Assembly: GCA_026390595.1 (NCBI GenBank)
Contig: JAPLFQ010000015.1
Span: forward strand, 106,024-170,023
Direction: 5' to 3'
From: Ignavibacteriales bacterium
GTDB lineage: Bacteria; Bacteroidota; Ignavibacteria; UBA10030
DNA length: 64,000 nt
Part shown: positions 14,061-21,828 of the stretch, one piece after another
Numbering within the stretch: position 1 is the stretch's first letter
Layout: each line of letters opens with the position of its first letter
Translations under genes and position numbers: made by a program
Notes under the pieces: model-generated
The model's database searches: none
What the model saw: only the letters and a program-made list of their open reading frames with translations
Told to the model about the DNA's origin: nothing

Positions 14061-15542
14061 TTATTGCTTAAGAAGTTCTTTGTAGAGGTTTACGTAGTGT
14101 TTGGCCGAATGCTCCCAGGAGAAATCCTTGGCCATACCATTCCGCATCAACTTCTTCCACTCCTCTGGTTGCTGATACACCTTGAGGGCCCGTTGAATCG
14201 CCTTGAGCAATTCCTTCGCATCATACTTCTCGAACTTGAACCCGGTCCCTTTTCCACTGCCCGAATAGTCCTCTACGGTATCCTCGAGCCCGCCGGTAGC
14301 CCGGACCACCGGGATCGTTCCGTATCGCATGCTGTACATTTGATTCAGGCCGCATGGCTCGTACCGCGAAGGCATGACAAAGATGTCACTTCCCGCCTCA
14401 ATCAAGTGCGCCAGCTCCTGGTCAAACCCGAAATACACGCCGATATGCTCCGGGTATTTCTTCTGCAGGGCCTCGAAATTCTTCTCCGTGGCCTTGTCGC
14501 CGTCTCCGAGCAGGACAAATTGCACGTTCAGCTTCACCAGCTCATCCATGATCTCAATGACGAGGTCGAATCCCTTCTGTTCTACGAGGCGCGAGATGGC
14601 CCCAATTACCGGAGCCGTTTCCTTGAATGGAAGCTTCAGCTTCGCCATCAGTGCGCGCTTGTTGTCGATCTTCGCGTCCAGCGACTTCATATCGTACTTT
14701 CGGTAGATGAGGTCGTCCGCCGCTGGATTCCAGATATTATAGTCAATTCCATTCAATATCCCGTGGAGGTCCTTCTTCCGCTTGGCGAGAAGGCCGGTCA
14801 GCCCTGCGCCGAATTCCTCCGAAGTCGAGATCTCTTCCGCATAGCGCCGGCTGACCGTCGTCACGGAATCTGAGAACTGGAGGCCGGTCTTCAGGAAATT
14901 GAACTTGCCGTACGCTTCCACGCCTTCAACATTGAAGAGGTTCTTCGGCAGGCCCGTTTTCGGGAATGCATCGGGAGGAAAGGCTCCCTGGTACGCCATG
15001 TTGTGGATGGTGAAAACGGTCTTGATAGGTTTCAGAAACTGGTCGTTGCTGTAAAGCGTTTTCAGATAGGCAGGCACAATTCCCGTTTGCCAGTCGTTGC
15101 AATGGATGATGTCTGGCTGCCACCCCAGACGCTTCAGGGTTTCGAGAACACCGCGGCAGAAGAAGATGAACCGCTCATCGTTGTCCTTGTAGTCCTTCCG
15201 GCCGACCGGGCTCTGGTAGATGCCATCGCGGCCAAAGTAGTTTGCATTATCAAGGAAGTAAACCTGGACCTTTTCTTTGAGGTTGCTGATGAAGGACGAC
15301 TTGACGTTGGCGAGTTCGGTCTGTTTTCCGACCGGGATGGGAATCTCTTTGAGACGTATGATGTCGTGGAGTTTGTATCGCCGCTCGCTTATAAACCGGT
15401 AGCGGGGCATCATGATGCGTATTTCATGCCCCAGCTCTTTGATAGCCTGAGGCAGCGCACTGGATACGTCGGCTAAGCCTCCGGTTTTTGCAAAGGGGTC
15501 GACCTCACTCGACAAAAACAAGACGTTTAGCGGTTTAGACAT
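14061..15542 (-). CDS. glgA: Glycogen/starch synthase
   Basis: A 493-residue GT5 glycosyltransferase that adds ADP-glucose (or UDP-glucose) to an alpha-1,4-glucan. It opens NVLFLSSEVDPFAKTGGLADV, which contains the K-T-G-G-L glucan and nucleotide-sugar motif, and the C-terminal Rossmann half has MPSRYEPCGLNQMYSMRYGTIPVVRATGGL, the conserved donor-binding region. Length fits bacterial GlgA (about 480). It is first in a co-directional run reaching the polyprenyl synthase. A promoter is seen at 15580-15608. A DUF5103-like protein with a glycogen-binding-like domain is encoded at 40073. Confidence 0.95.
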   Translation of the reverse strand: MSKPLNVLFLSSEVDPFAKTGGLADVSSALPQAIKELGHEIRIMMPRYRFISERRYKLHDIIRLKEIPIPVGKQTELANVKSSFISNLKEKVQVYFLDNANYFGRDGIYQSPVGRKDYKDNDERFIFFCRGVLETLKRLGWQPDIIHCNDWQTGIVPAYLKTLYSNDQFLKPIKTVFTIHNMAYQGAFPPDAFPKTGLPKNLFNVEGVEAYGKFNFLKTGLQFSDSVTTVSRRYAEEISTSEEFGAGLTGLLAKRKKDLHGILNGIDYNIWNPAADDLIYRKYDMKSLDAKIDNKRALMAKLKLPFKETAPVIGAISRLVEQKGFDLVIEIMDELVKLNVQFVLLGDGDKATEKNFEALQKKYPEHIGVYFGFDQELAHLIEAGSDIFVMPSRYEPCGLNQMYSMRYGTIPVVRATGGLEDTVEDYSGSGKGTGFKFEKYDAKELLKAIQRALKVYQQPEEWKKLMRNGMAKDFSWEHSAKHYVNLYKELLKQ

Positions 15543-15579
15543 TGAGCCCCATTTTCAAAAAATTGATGAAATCCAAGTA

Positions 15580-15608
15580 AATTTACACAAGTTTTAGCTG
15601 TTACGCAA
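15580..15608 (-). promoter_or_regulatory. Promoter for glgA
   Basis: On the minus strand TTGCGT (15608-15603) is separated by 17 bases from TAAATT (15585-15580), extended to TAAATTTA. The predicted start near 15573 leaves a leader of about 30 bases before the glgA ATG. The rest of 15609-15870 shows no gene and no other motif I can name. Confidence 0.6.
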
Positions 15609-15873
15609 TCAAAAAAAAGTGCTTGTGATGAGTGTACGGGTTCCATAACGTTTTTCGCAAAGTCAGCACGTCCTGAACTCGTGACCGCAATCAATTGAGA
15701 GATCGTCCAATGTGACGAACGGGAGCATTGCCAATGTACATTCCGTGACACGAGAATTCTCATTCGAGTTGCGCGCACTGATAATGAGGAGATCAGGTCG
15801 CACGTCCTGCAATTGGATACGTCCCAATCACACCGCTTGAGTTTGACGTGCGGCACACAGAGCCAAAAAACAC

Positions 15874-15902
15874 TTGACTCTCGTGCCAGAGGTCTCTATA
15901 TT
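15874..15902 (+). promoter_or_regulatory. Promoter ahead of the folded leader/RNA and porU
   Basis: TTGACT at 15874-15879 and TATATT at 15897-15902 are 17 bases apart, the same spacing and same -10 as the promoter at 199-227. A start near 15908 would precede the folded region that ends in a terminator at 16092-16098. Confidence 0.72.
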
Positions 15903-15903
15903 G

Positions 15904-16098
15904 CACTGTCGAATTTATCAAGTAAGGGAGAGTTCTATAGCGGATTTGTTAAAGGTTAGTTTCTGAGCAGGCATCGAAGAAGGTCCTTGCTCCGAATCTA
16001 AAGTTGTGCAAGACCACAAGCCTTTATCAAATCCGGTGTTCTCCATCAACAGTGTAGCCGGATGAGATGGCTTTTTCCTATCTCGTTCGGCTTTTTCT
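15904..16098 (+). ncRNA. Candidate structured RNA (small RNA or attenuating leader)
   Basis: Nested complementary segments suggest a defined fold: CACTGT (15904-15909) with ACAGTG (16049-16054), GGAGA (15927-15931) with TCTCC (16040-16044), and CGGATTTGTTAAAGG (15941-15955) with CCTTTATCAAATCCG (16021-16035), 14 of 15 paired. Inside this stem lie two hairpins, GAGCA...TGCTC (about 15965-15992) and TTGTG-6-CACAA (about 16004-16019). A promoter precedes and an intrinsic terminator ends it. Length near 190 bases would suit a 6S-like or other stable RNA, but I recognise no family consensus and could not fold it computationally. A cis-acting attenuator of porU is the main alternative. Confidence 0.5.
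16056..16098 (+). terminator. Intrinsic terminator immediately before porU
   Basis: AGCCGGATGAGAT (16056-16068) pairs with ATCTCGTTCGGCT (16080-16092) over 13 positions with two G-T pairs, followed by TTTTTCTATTT. It ends only a few bases before the porU ATG at 16105, so it either ends a separate RNA or attenuates porU. Confidence 0.85.
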
Positions 16099-16104
16099 AT
16101 TTAT

Positions 16105-19100
16105 ATGAGATACATCAAAACACTCCTGATAATTTTGCTTCTTGCCGTACCGGCGTCTGCTCAGCAGGCGAAGGACCTCCGCGTTCTTAGCGAAACGCCT
16201 ACGTCCATCGTTGTCGAATTTACTCCTTCGTTTGCGCACCGTGTTGTCCCGGGTAGTGACGGGAAGCGATACACTATCTACGATTTCAGCGGCTCGGTCT
16301 CGGACCAGGGCACGCCAGGCTCGCCCCTGTCTCCATACCGGCCGGTGATCATCAATATGCCCGCCCGGCGATTCTCCCTCCAGATCATCGCTCAGGATTA
16401 CGACGATCTTTCCGGAGTCAATCCTGCCAGCCACCCCTATTGGAAACCGCTCAAAGAGTTCGGATTGAGCCCTGTCTACTCAGCGCTGAATCCTCGATTT
16501 ATGACAACCGAGCGTGTGCCCGGGCAGGTCGCAGGACTCGCCAACATCCGTCAGGCGCGGGGCACGACCTTGGGGACCCTGAAGATCTCTCCCGTTCAGA
16601 TCATTCCGGGGAAGAACGAAGTGCGCCTCTATCGACGTATCGTTGTACAGATCGATTTTGCGGCAGCAAGCCCGGGCGGGTTCCCGATCTCCGCGTTCTT
16701 CAAGGGGCCGTTTCCGTCGGCCCTACAGTCGGGTGCCGTCTCGAAGGGGCAGAATGTCGCCGGTGATTCCCCGCTTGCGCAGGGCGACTGGTATAGAATG
16801 GATGTGAACGAGACGGGGATCTACAAGATCGATCAGTCATTCCTGTCGAAGGCCAGTATCTCGCTCAGTTCGATAGGGAACATCAACTCGATCAGGATTT
16901 TCGGGAATGGCGGCTTCGAACTTCCGGAGGACCTGAATGAAACGAGGCCGAACGGTTTGGAGGAGATTCCGCGGCTGGTCGTGGATAGAAACTCCAACGG
17001 TGTCTTCGACTCAGATGATTACGTGCTTTTCTATGGCAAATCGGTGAGGGGGTGGAAATACTCCCCGGCGGAAAAGACGTTCCGCCACTATCTTAACCAC
17101 TACACCGAGACCAGCGTCTATTTTATGACATATGGCGGCACGGGACGCGGAAGAACCATGGATCCCCTGGTTTCGACGAGCATCGCGGGCGCATACAAGC
17201 CGGCAGATTTTCCGGAAAGGACATTCCTCGAGCGTGAATTGGCTCAGCTTGGGAATCCCAGTATCAATTCCGGCCGGGAATGGGCTGGCGAGTCATTTAA
17301 TCAGGCAAGCAGCGCACTCACTTTCATGACGAGCCTGCCGGGACTCGTCCCGACCAAACCCATGCAGTACCGGTGTGCCTTCTTCAGCAGTTCCACGTCG
17401 ATCGACTCCTTTGTCGTCCAGGAAAATGGAAGCACATTGGGCTCGATTCCAATGTACAACATCGACGTCGGGTCCATCACGGACGTGAAGGCCTATCGCG
17501 CGCCGGTTGCTGAATTCAAGCGCACCGGCTCGATACCGAGCGACAGGAGCGTCCTTCGGATGCAGTTCGTCACGCGCAATTCCGCTGCAGAGGGACGGCT
17601 CGATTGGTTCGAGATTCTCTATCCGCGCCGGTTCGAAGCGGACAATGATTCGCTTCTCTTCACGTCGCCCGATACCACCGCAGTTGTCGAGTATACCATC
17701 TCGAAATTTTCGTCGCGCGACATCAGCGTGTTTGATGTGACTGATCATAAGAACGTGAAGCAGGTCACGAACCTTGCGTTCGACCCGGTGGACGCGTCGC
17801 TCGCCCGATTCCAGGCTGCGCAGACCGCCGGTGGTGTGAGCGAATTCGTTGCCGTCGGTCCGAAGGCTTTCAGGACGGCCGCGAACCTCAAGCGCGTCGC
17901 GAACTCGAACCTTCATGGCTTGAGCGGAGGAGCGGATTTTGTCATTCTCGCGCCGGCCGAATTCCTTGCCGATGCCGAGCGTCTCCGCTCACACAGACAA
18001 ACGAGCGATCAACTCAGGTCGTTGGTGGTCGACCTTGGGCAGGTCTACAATGAGTTCTCTTCGGGAATGCTCGATCCCGTCGCAATCCGCGATTTCCTGA
18101 AATACACTCAATCTGCCTGGTCCGTCAAGCCGCAATACGTCCTCCTGTTCGGAGCGGGAAGTTACGACTACAAGAATATCAGAAAGCTGAGCGATCGCAT
18201 CTGGGTCCCGCCGTATGAGACGCTGGAGTCAAACGTACAAATCAGCACGCTCGCCAGCGATGACTTCTTTGTCATTCTCGATCCGTCGAGCCGGCAGATA
18301 TCAATTCCCATCGGACGGCTGCCCCTGCGCTCGACTGACGATGCGAGAAATGTGGTGGACAAGATCATCGCGTACGATACGTCCCGGTCCTACGATACGT
18401 GGCACAACCGGATTACCTTCGCGGCTGATGACGGTCTGACAACGACAGGGGACGATCAGGAGATACACACAAGCCAATCCGAGAGGCTGGCTCAGGATTA
18501 TACCCCCGATACGTTCAACAAAGAGAAGATCTTCATCGTCCAGTATCCCACAGTGAACACATCCACGGGTCGCACAAAACCGACTGCCAATGTTGCGATT
18601 GTCGATGCCATCAACCAGGGGTCGGTCATTCTGAACTGGACAGGTCATGGCAACACGCAGCAATGGGCGCACGAGAACGTGTTTTCAGTTTCTCAGGATT
18701 TTCCGCTCATTAGCAACAAAGGGAAGCTGTTCTTCCTGGTCGCCGCCACGTGCGATTTTGCGCGGTACGACTATGACAAGGAAACCAGCGCCGGCGAGCA
18801 GTTGATCCTGATGCAGGGGCGGGGTGCGGTGGGTGCAGTAACGCCTGACCGCGTCGTATTCTCGCAGGATAATGCGTACCTGAACCAGAGATTCTATGCT
18901 CACTTGTTTCAGACTGACAACCAGGGAAAGCCTGTTCGGCTTGGCGACGCGATGTGGCAGACGAAACAGGAATTGTACGGTGAGAACGACCTGAAGCATC
19001 ATCTCCTTGCTGATCCTACTATGCGGCTGGCGATTCCCCGGGCCAACGTCACCGTCGACAGCATCAATGGCGAGAATCAGTTTGCGCTCGTGATCGTCGG

Positions 19101-20094
19101 GGCTCTGGGCAAGGTGAGGGTGCGCGGAACTCTCAGAAAGTCCACCGGCACGGCGCTGAGTTCCATGCAGGGACGAGCGATACTGGAAGCGTATGATTCA
19201 AAAAGGAAGGTGCCAGTCCCGGAATGGGGCGGCTACACCTTCGTGACAAATGGGAGCTTGATCTACCGCGGGGAAGTGTCCGTGCGGAATGGTGCGGTGC
19301 AGGGGACATTCCCGATTCCGAAGGACGTATCGTATGGCGAGAACCGGTCACGGATCAATATCTATGCATGGAATGATTCCACCGACGCAGCCGGGTTCAC
19401 GGAGAACCTCTCCATCTCAGGTACGTCCACCGCGACGATCGATACTGTCGGTCCTGCGATTCGCGTATTTCTCCAGGATGAATCCTTCCGCCCGGGAGAT
19501 GTCGTCAGCCCTGATGCGCCGTTGATTGTCGATCTTGCAGATAGCAGCGGCATCAATACCTCCACAGCGGGGATTGGACACAAACTGGAGGCGATCCTGG
19601 ACGGGTCGCAACGATCGATTGATCTGACGGATTACTATCGCGGAAAACTCGACACGTACCAAAGCGGACAAGTGAAGTATCAATTCACAAATCTGGCAGA
19701 GGGGCGGCACACGCTGGATGTCAAGGCGTGGGACATCTTCAATAATGCCGCGAGCGCTGAAACGTATTTCGAGGTGCGTGCGGCGTCGCAGCTTTCGATC
19801 TACAACGTCGTCAATTTCCCGAATCCTTTCGCCCGCTCGACGACGTTCACGTTCCAACGCTCGTCCACGGACCCGGTTGATGTCGAAATAAAAATCTACA
19901 CGGTCGCGGGACGACTGATCCAAACGCTGGAGGTGCTGTCGGTTTCTGACCGGTTTGTCCAGATCCCATGGGACGGCAGAGATCGAGATGGATCGGAGAT
20001 GGCCAACGGTGTCTATTTATACCGGGTGATCGCGAAGTCGTTCGACAAATCGTCAACAAGTGAGGCGCTCGGAAAGATTGCTATCCTTCGATAA
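16105..20094 (+). CDS. porU: T9SS sortase-like gingipain-family peptidase PorU
   Basis: A 1329-residue exported protein with a clear signal peptide (TLLIILLLAVPASAQQ). The central C25 (gingipain-type) domain has the catalytic histidine in LNWTGHGNTQQW (H848) and cysteine in VAATCDFARYD (C883). Ig-like beta domains follow, and the end is a FlgD-like/T9SS sorting domain (NFPNPFARSTTF, then MANGVYLYRVIA). PorU removes the sorting domain of T9SS cargo at the cell surface and attaches it, together with PorV, which is encoded two genes on. No Shine-Dalgarno is present; the ATG follows an AT-rich stretch and an intrinsic terminator. A secreted C25 protease cargo is the less likely alternative, given porV nearby. 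Confidence 0.9.
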   Translation: MRYIKTLLIILLLAVPASAQQAKDLRVLSETPTSIVVEFTPSFAHRVVPGSDGKRYTIYDFSGSVSDQGTPGSPLSPYRPVIINMPARRFSLQIIAQDYDDLSGVNPASHPYWKPLKEFGLSPVYSALNPRFMTTERVPGQVAGLANIRQARGTTLGTLKISPVQIIPGKNEVRLYRRIVVQIDFAAASPGGFPISAFFKGPFPSALQSGAVSKGQNVAGDSPLAQGDWYRMDVNETGIYKIDQSFLSKASISLSSIGNINSIRIFGNGGFELPEDLNETRPNGLEEIPRLVVDRNSNGVFDSDDYVLFYGKSVRGWKYSPAEKTFRHYLNHYTETSVYFMTYGGTGRGRTMDPLVSTSIAGAYKPADFPERTFLERELAQLGNPSINSGREWAGESFNQASSALTFMTSLPGLVPTKPMQYRCAFFSSSTSIDSFVVQENGSTLGSIPMYNIDVGSITDVKAYRAPVAEFKRTGSIPSDRSVLRMQFVTRNSAAEGRLDWFEILYPRRFEADNDSLLFTSPDTTAVVEYTISKFSSRDISVFDVTDHKNVKQVTNLAFDPVDASLARFQAAQTAGGVSEFVAVGPKAFRTAANLKRVANSNLHGLSGGADFVILAPAEFLADAERLRSHRQTSDQLRSLVVDLGQVYNEFSSGMLDPVAIRDFLKYTQSAWSVKPQYVLLFGAGSYDYKNIRKLSDRIWVPPYETLESNVQISTLASDDFFVILDPSSRQISIPIGRLPLRSTDDARNVVDKIIAYDTSRSYDTWHNRITFAADDGLTTTGDDQEIHTSQSERLAQDYTPDTFNKEKIFIVQYPTVNTSTGRTKPTANVAIVDAINQGSVILNWTGHGNTQQWAHENVFSVSQDFPLISNKGKLFFLVAATCDFARYDYDKETSAGEQLILMQGRGAVGAVTPDRVVFSQDNAYLNQRFYAHLFQTDNQGKPVRLGDAMWQTKQELYGENDLKHHLLADPTMRLAIPRANVTVDSINGENQFALVIVGALGKVRVRGTLRKSTGTALSSMQGRAILEAYDSKRKVPVPEWGGYTFVTNGSLIYRGEVSVRNGAVQGTFPIPKDVSYGENRSRINIYAWNDSTDAAGFTENLSISGTSTATIDTVGPAIRVFLQDESFRPGDVVSPDAPLIVDLADSSGINTSTAGIGHKLEAILDGSQRSIDLTDYYRGKLDTYQSGQVKYQFTNLAEGRHTLDVKAWDIFNNAASAETYFEVRAASQLSIYNVVNFPNPFARSTTFTFQRSSTDPVDVEIKIYTVAGRLIQTLEVLSVSDRFVQIPWDGRDRDGSEMANGVYLYRVIAKSFDKSSTSEALGKIAILR

Positions 20095-20681: not shown

Positions 20682-20721
20682 AATTCTGTCGGTAGTTCCA
20701 TTTCCTAGGAGGATGTCTGTC

Positions 20722-21828
20722 ATGGTAAAGAAAATCTTTGGGTTAGCAATCGTGTTGCTCGTGGTTTCTGTGCAGTTGACGAATGCCCAAGTCTCAACGT
20801 CAGCGGTTCCGTTCCTGCTTATCGCTCCAAACTCCCGCGCCAGCGGCATGGGAGAAGGCGGCACAGCTCTCGCCGACGACGCGTCTGCGTTGTACTGGAA
20901 CCCGGGCGGACTTGCATTCCAGGATGGGCAGGAAGTTAGCATCTCGCACGCGAACTGGCTGCCGGCCTTCAACCTGTCCGATCTCTATATCGATTATCTC
21001 GTCTACCGGCGACCAATGCCGCAGCTCGATGGAAATCTGGCCGCGAGCATCACGTTCCTGAACCTGGGATCGTTCACGCGCACGGCCAACGATCCGACGC
21101 CGCTCGAGACATTCAACGCCTATGAGTTCGGCATCACCGTCGGGTATTCCACGAAGCTCACCGAGGAACTTGGCCTTGGCATCAACGGCAGGTTCATCCA
21201 CAGCCGCCTGGCTCCGTTCGGCACGGCGGAAGAGCAGGGGACGGGTATCGCCTCCGGGTTCTCCTTCGACATCGGCATGCTCTACAAGCCGAAGTCTCTG
21301 GAAATTCCCTTCACCGGGCTCGATATCGGCGAGCACTTCACTGCGGGCTTCAATCTCTCCAACATCGGACCTGCGATCAGTTACATCGACCGGGCCCAGG
21401 CTGATCCTCTGCCAACCAGCCTCCGCCTCGGTCTTGGTTACAAGGTTATCAACGATCCGTTCAACAAGCTCACTGTTATTGTGGACGCGAGCAAACTGCT
21501 TACCCGGAAGCACACCGACGGAACGAGCGATCCGTTCTATAAGGCGTTCTTCACGTCGTGGACAGACAAACCGTTCCGGGAAGAGCTGCGTCAATTTGAT
21601 TCCTCCGTCGGACTCGAGTACTGGTACAGCAGCTGGATTGCTCTTCGCGCCGGTTACTTCTATGAAGACCCCGAGTACGGCAATCGGAAGTTCATGACGT
21701 TCGGCGCCGGAATCCGGTACGACATTTTTGGATTCGATTTCAGCTACATCAGCACCTTTGAACAACAACATCCTCTTGGCGAAACGTTGCGCTTCACCTT
21801 GCTTATTTCGTGGGGAGGTCCATCGTAA
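20722..21828 (+). CDS. porV: T9SS outer-membrane protein PorV
   Basis: A 368-residue outer-membrane barrel protein with signal peptide (GLAIVLLVVSVQLTNAQ). The mature N-terminus carries the PorV signature FLLIAPNSRASGMGEGGTAL followed by SALYWNPGGLAFQDG, and aromatic-ended strands continue to the C-terminus. PorV shuttles T9SS cargo from the Sov translocon to the PorU attachment complex. I prefer ATG 20722 to ATG 20713 because the perfect AGGAGG at 20707-20712 abuts the first and lies nine bases from the second. PorQ is the closest alternative paralogue. Confidence 0.88.
   Translation: MVKKIFGLAIVLLVVSVQLTNAQVSTSAVPFLLIAPNSRASGMGEGGTALADDASALYWNPGGLAFQDGQEVSISHANWLPAFNLSDLYIDYLVYRRPMPQLDGNLAASITFLNLGSFTRTANDPTPLETFNAYEFGITVGYSTKLTEELGLGINGRFIHSRLAPFGTAEEQGTGIASGFSFDIGMLYKPKSLEIPFTGLDIGEHFTAGFNLSNIGPAISYIDRAQADPLPTSLRLGLGYKVINDPFNKLTVIVDASKLLTRKHTDGTSDPFYKAFFTSWTDKPFREELRQFDSSVGLEYWYSSWIALRAGYFYEDPEYGNRKFMTFGAGIRYDIFGFDFSYISTFEQQHPLGETLRFTLLISWGGPS

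Follow-up and report, generated by a model that had tools for sequence, protein, structure and literature searches.

What is the function of the 231-base gap (15874-16104) that precedes porU, the gene of the type IX secretion system (T9SS) sortase, in the window, i.e., the whole 64,000-nucleotide stretch of Ignavibacteriales DNA that was analyzed? An earlier note on this DNA had proposed either a stable small RNA or a leader attenuating porU. From sequence comparison, we consider it quite probable that the gap is a cis-acting transcription attenuator in the leader of the porU mRNA, which would be OFF by default and turned ON by a putative factor that holds a conserved strand (5S) of the leader. 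A cis-acting switch as such is well supported by the comparison. The features of the locus are as follows.

14061..15542, minus strand: glgA (TIGR02095), divergent neighbor, outside the element
15874..15902, plus strand: sigma-70-type promoter, TTGACT (15874-15879), 17 bases, TATATT (15897-15902); from sequence, recurs in homologous loci
15909..16095, plus strand: predicted terminated leader RNA of ~187 nt; from sequence and fold, start predicted from the -10 box
15926..15932, plus strand: GGAG box (GGGAGAG), pairs with 16038-16044 in the fold
15936..15957, plus strand: 5S, conserved motif strand UAUAGCGGAUUUGUUAAAGGUU; the core GTTAAAGG is nearly invariant in 46 loci
15960..15996, plus strand: inner hairpin H1 (CTGAGCAGG...CCTTGCTC), lineage specific by fold and comparison
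16004..16019, plus strand: inner hairpin H2 (TTGTG...CACAA) in the fold, overlaps 3S
16016..16037, plus strand: 3S, switching strand ACAAGCCUUUAUCAAAUCCGGU, whose partner is 5S or the terminator 5' arm plus loop; from pairing tests and fold
16038..16044, plus strand: GUUCUCC, 3' partner of the GGAG box in the fold
16056..16077, plus strand: T5, made up of the 5' arm of the terminator and most of its loop, antiterminator partner of 3S (duplex -19.4 kcal/mol; z = -3.6 versus shuffles)
16056..16101, plus strand: intrinsic terminator (stem 16056-16092) with T-rich tail; from sequence and fold, stem covaries in relatives
16105..20094, plus strand: porU, T9SS sortase, the regulated gene (NF033707, 984 bits, cutoff 420)
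20713..21828, plus strand: porV, downstream T9SS gene (NF033710, 288 bits, cutoff 250), possibly in one transcript with porU

The promoter, whose 17-base spacing had been read correctly in the earlier note, scored 10 of 12 against the consensus and was the best site within 15000-17000; TTGA[CT]-N17-23-TANNNT was found at the same place in 81 of 84 homologous loci. Folding of the gap gave -83.6 kcal/mol, compared with -56.5 ± 4.3 kcal/mol for dinucleotide shuffles (z = -6.3), and none of 200 shuffles folded as well. The long stem described at 15941-15955/16021-16035 (CGGATTTGTTAAAGG/CCTTTATCAAATCCG) is indeed present; it contains a single T-T mismatch, and two hairpins lie within it. As had been claimed, an intrinsic terminator lies a few bases ahead of the start codon: its stem has 15 pairs, including G-U pairs, and is separated from the porU ATG (16105) by 12 bases, and the median distance from stem end to start codon was 10 bases in the homologous loci. 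Terminator-like sites as such were not rarer in shuffles (2 found versus 2.2 expected); it is its conservation that makes the terminator ahead of porU credible.

The gap matched no known RNA family. A scan against Rfam 15 gave no match at the gathering cutoff, in agreement with the earlier note, and relaxed thresholds yielded only chance matches below the cutoff; in 17 homologous loci, no Rfam family except tRNAs was found. The RNA resembles 6S RNA (RF00013) in its length near 187 nt, its long interrupted stem and its own promoter. The RF00013 model did not match the gap, as the earlier note had anticipated, and the 6S RNA of the genome is encoded elsewhere (G000:C27:12158-12382, L041; 47.5 bits, just over the gathering score of 46.4); 6S RNA was thus rejected. 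A leader-peptide attenuator was rejected as well: a 6-codon TTG frame exists in part of family f1, and its stop codon or frame is lost in relatives.

The element is conserved, and it is tied to porU. By blastn, it was found in the genus of the window organism and in part of its family, in each case with glgA on one side and porU on the other. A covariance model (R1) built from 12 of these blastn-found loci matched 46 of 98 genomes of the order, and the next gene was porU in all 46, also in families in which glgA is not the neighbor. At the level of the class, 88 of 391 genomes were matched by a broader model (R2), which was built from 46 sequences. Forty further class-level loci were fetched, and porU is directly downstream in 36 of them. 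The remaining four comprise a locus truncated at a contig end, L139, which precedes porV2, and two weak matches in family f24 that lie ahead of another gene. Two f5 loci with weaker scores are also followed by a PorU-like gene. The named relatives that carry the element are metagenome-assembled genomes of Ignavibacteria or Ignavibacteriales. The sole match outside the class in the phylum sample (G599), with a ParA-like gene downstream, was rejected as a false positive.

Most members share one order of parts: promoter, GGAG box, UAUMG, UUUGUUAAAGGUU (5S), a variable inner part, a CCUUU strand (3S) and the terminator. The conserved 5S strand reads UAUMG..UUUGUUAAAGG, with UAUMG in 60 and a GGAG box nearby in 54 of 84 loci, and the inner part ranges from two hairpins down to a short loop in different families. 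Compensatory changes in the long stem, which the earlier note had named as a sign of function, were found only in outliers: the core AAAGG/CCUUU shows almost no variation and, being nearly invariant, gives no covariation by itself, whereas L136 has AAAAG/CUUUU and L139 has AGAGG/CCUCU. Covariation in the terminator stem is clear among relatives. Four f6 leaders (L083, L091, L148 and L160) have an outer stem GAGCAAC/GUUGC followed by a T-run and may hold two tandem terminators. Similar hairpins in f24, in which GCAAC..UAUA..UUGUUAAA is closed by GUUGC with a T-rich run (L133 536-641 and L134 570-652, in match orientation, and L168), lie ahead of genes that, judged by eye, encode a membrane-protein/YceI-like pair and a Rieske-like protein; these hairpins may be due to chance or show that the motif is used more widely.

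The feature that the earlier note had missed is a conserved antiterminator pairing. In the 46 order-level loci, 3S can pair with the 5' arm and loop of the terminator; the mean z of this duplex was -3.1 against dinucleotide shuffles, and the own partner ranked at 0.17 among foreign ones. Over 84 loci, the own 3S:T5 duplex had a mean energy of -13.5 kcal/mol, compared with -10.3 kcal/mol for permuted partners, and none of 20,000 permutations, which ignore phylogeny, was as low. The excess was also present within families f1 and f6 (0 of 5,000 permutations each) and f5 (P = 0.01), and was marginal in f4. The closed helix 5S:3S behaved in the same way (own -15.4 versus permuted -11.9 kcal/mol; 0 of 20,000 permutations, phylogeny again ignored). 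In L088, the terminator contains AUGUUAAAGGU, a near-copy of 5S and the exact complement of 3S ACCUUUAACAU. In a close alignment of 12 sequences, covariation of the antiterminator pairs did not exceed that of shuffles (108 of 500 as high). The automated test gave no 3S:T5 excess in the distant families f9, f12 and f17 pooled (P = 0.96), and therefore the expression platform there differs or is misassigned. In f17 (L129, L131, L132, L135 and L138), 3S mismatches the terminator, whose 5' side, UUUAUAGAGCCGAA, has an apparent complement in the inner segment UUUCGGUUUUAUAA; this segment looks like an alternative antiterminator. The loci combine the hallmarks of an attenuator, i.e., a position between promoter and start codon with conserved linkage, an intrinsic terminator and a mutually exclusive antiterminator, which coevolves with the terminator except in f9, f12 and f17 pooled.

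Stepwise folding of the window leader gave a consistent picture. When 5S can pair, the RNA takes the closed form and T5 remains available for the terminator; when 5S is barred, the lowest-energy structure with the polymerase at 16080 is the antiterminator. In the full-length RNA, the terminator remains the minimum-energy fold even with 5S barred, and therefore antitermination must be kinetic, that is, take place during transcription. In the scheme that we propose, 5S would pair with the later-made 3S during transcription, and with 3S occupied the terminator would fold just ahead of the porU start codon and stop transcription. Since 5S and 3S are the first to be transcribed, this OFF state would be the default. 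Were 5S kept single stranded by a trans-acting factor, 3S could pair instead with the 5S-like 5' arm and loop of the terminator; the terminator would then not form, and porU would be transcribed.

A second set of leaders has the same layout. It was found upstream of porV2 in most genomes of the window family, including the window's own genome at G000:C5:230441-230575 (L284 and L308). L139, mentioned above, also belongs here: the best match of its downstream gene is to porV2 (NF052325, E = 8.7e-69), with a score below the model's own cutoff and above that of the PorV/PorQ family model. The porV2 leader of the own genome has a promoter, AUCG..UUGCUAGAG, CUCUAGCAAUG and a terminator loop CAUUGCAUGAGGGUGA able to pair with that 3' strand; in relatives, UUGUUAGAG/CUCUAACAA is a compensatory change. 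Each alternative helix of the porV2 leaders beat all 20,000 permutations, phylogeny again being ignored. A model built from these leaders (R3) found 19 porV2 leaders among 32 family genomes and also matched three porU leaders with weak E-values. When we looked for a third member of the regulon with R3, only porV2 and known porU leaders were found, plus one weak match (G013:C244). Matches to GGAG-N3-10-TATMG-N1-6-TTTGYTA outside known leaders were near the level of the reversed-pattern control, and blastn for extra copies in the own genome gave only chance matches of 17-24 bases.

In sister lineages, the switch appears to have a translational version. In genomes of the Ignavibacteriaceae/Melioribacteraceae type, porU is preceded by a terminator-less leader that has a similar promoter and carries GGAGAA..UAUAGAGAAUUUGCUAC as its motif (L185, L187, L189, L194-L196, L199, L209, L211-L215, L221-L225, L230, L239 and others). 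Here, the UAUAGAGAAUUUGCUAC motif is complementary to porU codons ~2-15: in 37 terminator-less leaders, the own duplex had a mean of -20.1 kcal/mol, compared with -14.0 kcal/mol for permuted ones (mean z = -4.0; 0 of 20,000 permutations, phylogeny ignored). From the shared GGAG, UAUAG and UUUGYUA and the shared position, we infer that this motif is homologous to that of the window. The motif strand would pair with the porU start region, and such a leader would thus be the translational equivalent of the switch, with the same logic acting on translation.

How would 5S be controlled? A riboswitch, in which a metabolite or ion stabilizes the closed 5S:3S fold and the inner hairpins and thereby terminates porU transcription, would have the layout of OFF riboswitches with terminators, and the nearly invariant AAAGG/CCUUU core and the stable fold (z = -6.3) are in line with it; a small ligand closing the hairpin would leave an equal sequence pattern, with the opposite sign. 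We nevertheless regard it as unlikely, as the inner part, from two hairpins to a short loop, varies in a way that a conserved binding pocket does not, conservation lies mostly in one strand, and the porV2 leaders retain little besides UAUMG..UUGUUA and the switching strands. Moreover, freeing 5S would act with the same sign in the terminator and the translational type, and together with the variable inner part this favors an activating factor on 5S over a hairpin-closing ligand. The factor could also be the ribosome: a bound 30S subunit would cover roughly the right stretch of the leader, and binding at the GGAG box would cover 5S, free 3S and tie porU to translation capacity. In favor of this idea, the majority of loci have a GGAG close to the motif's 5' end, and most translational versions have GGAG-like boxes; we consider it quite improbable given that neither a start codon nor a reading frame is conserved and that about one-third of the loci have no GGAG.

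If pairing strength alone, without a dedicated factor, set the level of porU, as in an RNA thermometer or a passive structure, the AU-rich helix that covers the porU start region in translational leaders would fit, but a near-invariant core sequence would not be required, and we hold this to be very unlikely. That the RNA is an independent, trans-acting small RNA which lies ahead of porU by chance is highly improbable. A promoter and a terminator do frame a stable RNA, and short RNAs may build up from terminated leaders; yet the linkage to porU is strict across families, the switching strand complements the RNA's own terminator, and a second family precedes porV2. Of the alternatives in the earlier note, the small RNA is thus not supported, because the element follows porU wherever it goes, even where glgA is absent, while the attenuating leader is upheld by the strict linkage and the conserved antiterminator pairing.

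Returning to an attenuator with a factor on 5S, comparison of the sequences establishes the linkage to porU and porV2, the predicted mutually exclusive pairings and their coevolution; what we infer is the existence and sign of the factor, the physiological signal and which state is the default. The factor is probably a protein, and our best guess is one that senses the state of secretion or of the envelope, a signal suggested by the role of both porU and porV2 in the T9SS. It is conceivable, if a little short of an even chance, that one trans-acting factor reads UAUMG..UUUGYUA in both porU and porV2 leaders and that its input is wired, depending on the lineage, to attenuation or to sequestration of the porU start region. 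Ignavibacteria seem to control type IX secretion through RNA folding. If true, we know of no earlier case in which a T9SS is controlled at the RNA level, and the conserved switch on porU and porV2 would also be a new RNA family and a bait for finding its regulator, and the terminator and translational versions in sister lineages would be a natural test of expression-platform exchange.

Attenuators of such logic are well known, and those of trp (TRAP) and pyr (PyrR) are controlled by proteins. Like these, terminator riboswitches and the L10-L12 leader of rplJL (PMC4538822), the porU element places a mutually exclusive antiterminator and terminator in a promoter-bearing leader directly ahead of the gene, and control by leader binding is probably common to all. 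Orphan riboswitch candidates from comparative genomics (reviewed in PMC7266159) are likewise conserved leaders tied to a particular gene; the porU element matches no Rfam 15 family. No report of porU or T9SS attenuation was found in the open-access literature, and the element family, its T9SS targets and the paired transcriptional and translational versions are absent from Rfam 15 and from the literature found. In Flavobacterium psychrophilum, porU is listed in a promoter table in the section on an alternative sigma factor and is induced at high osmolarity (PMC9723704), which is likewise specific regulation, but at the level of the promoter, whereas an RNA leader is used in Ignavibacteria. Unlike the known attenuators, the porU element has no known sequence relation to any of them, occurs in Ignavibacteria ahead of T9SS genes, has a terminator 5' arm and loop that mimic the 5' anti-antiterminator strand and has, in sister lineages, a translational version with a similar motif.
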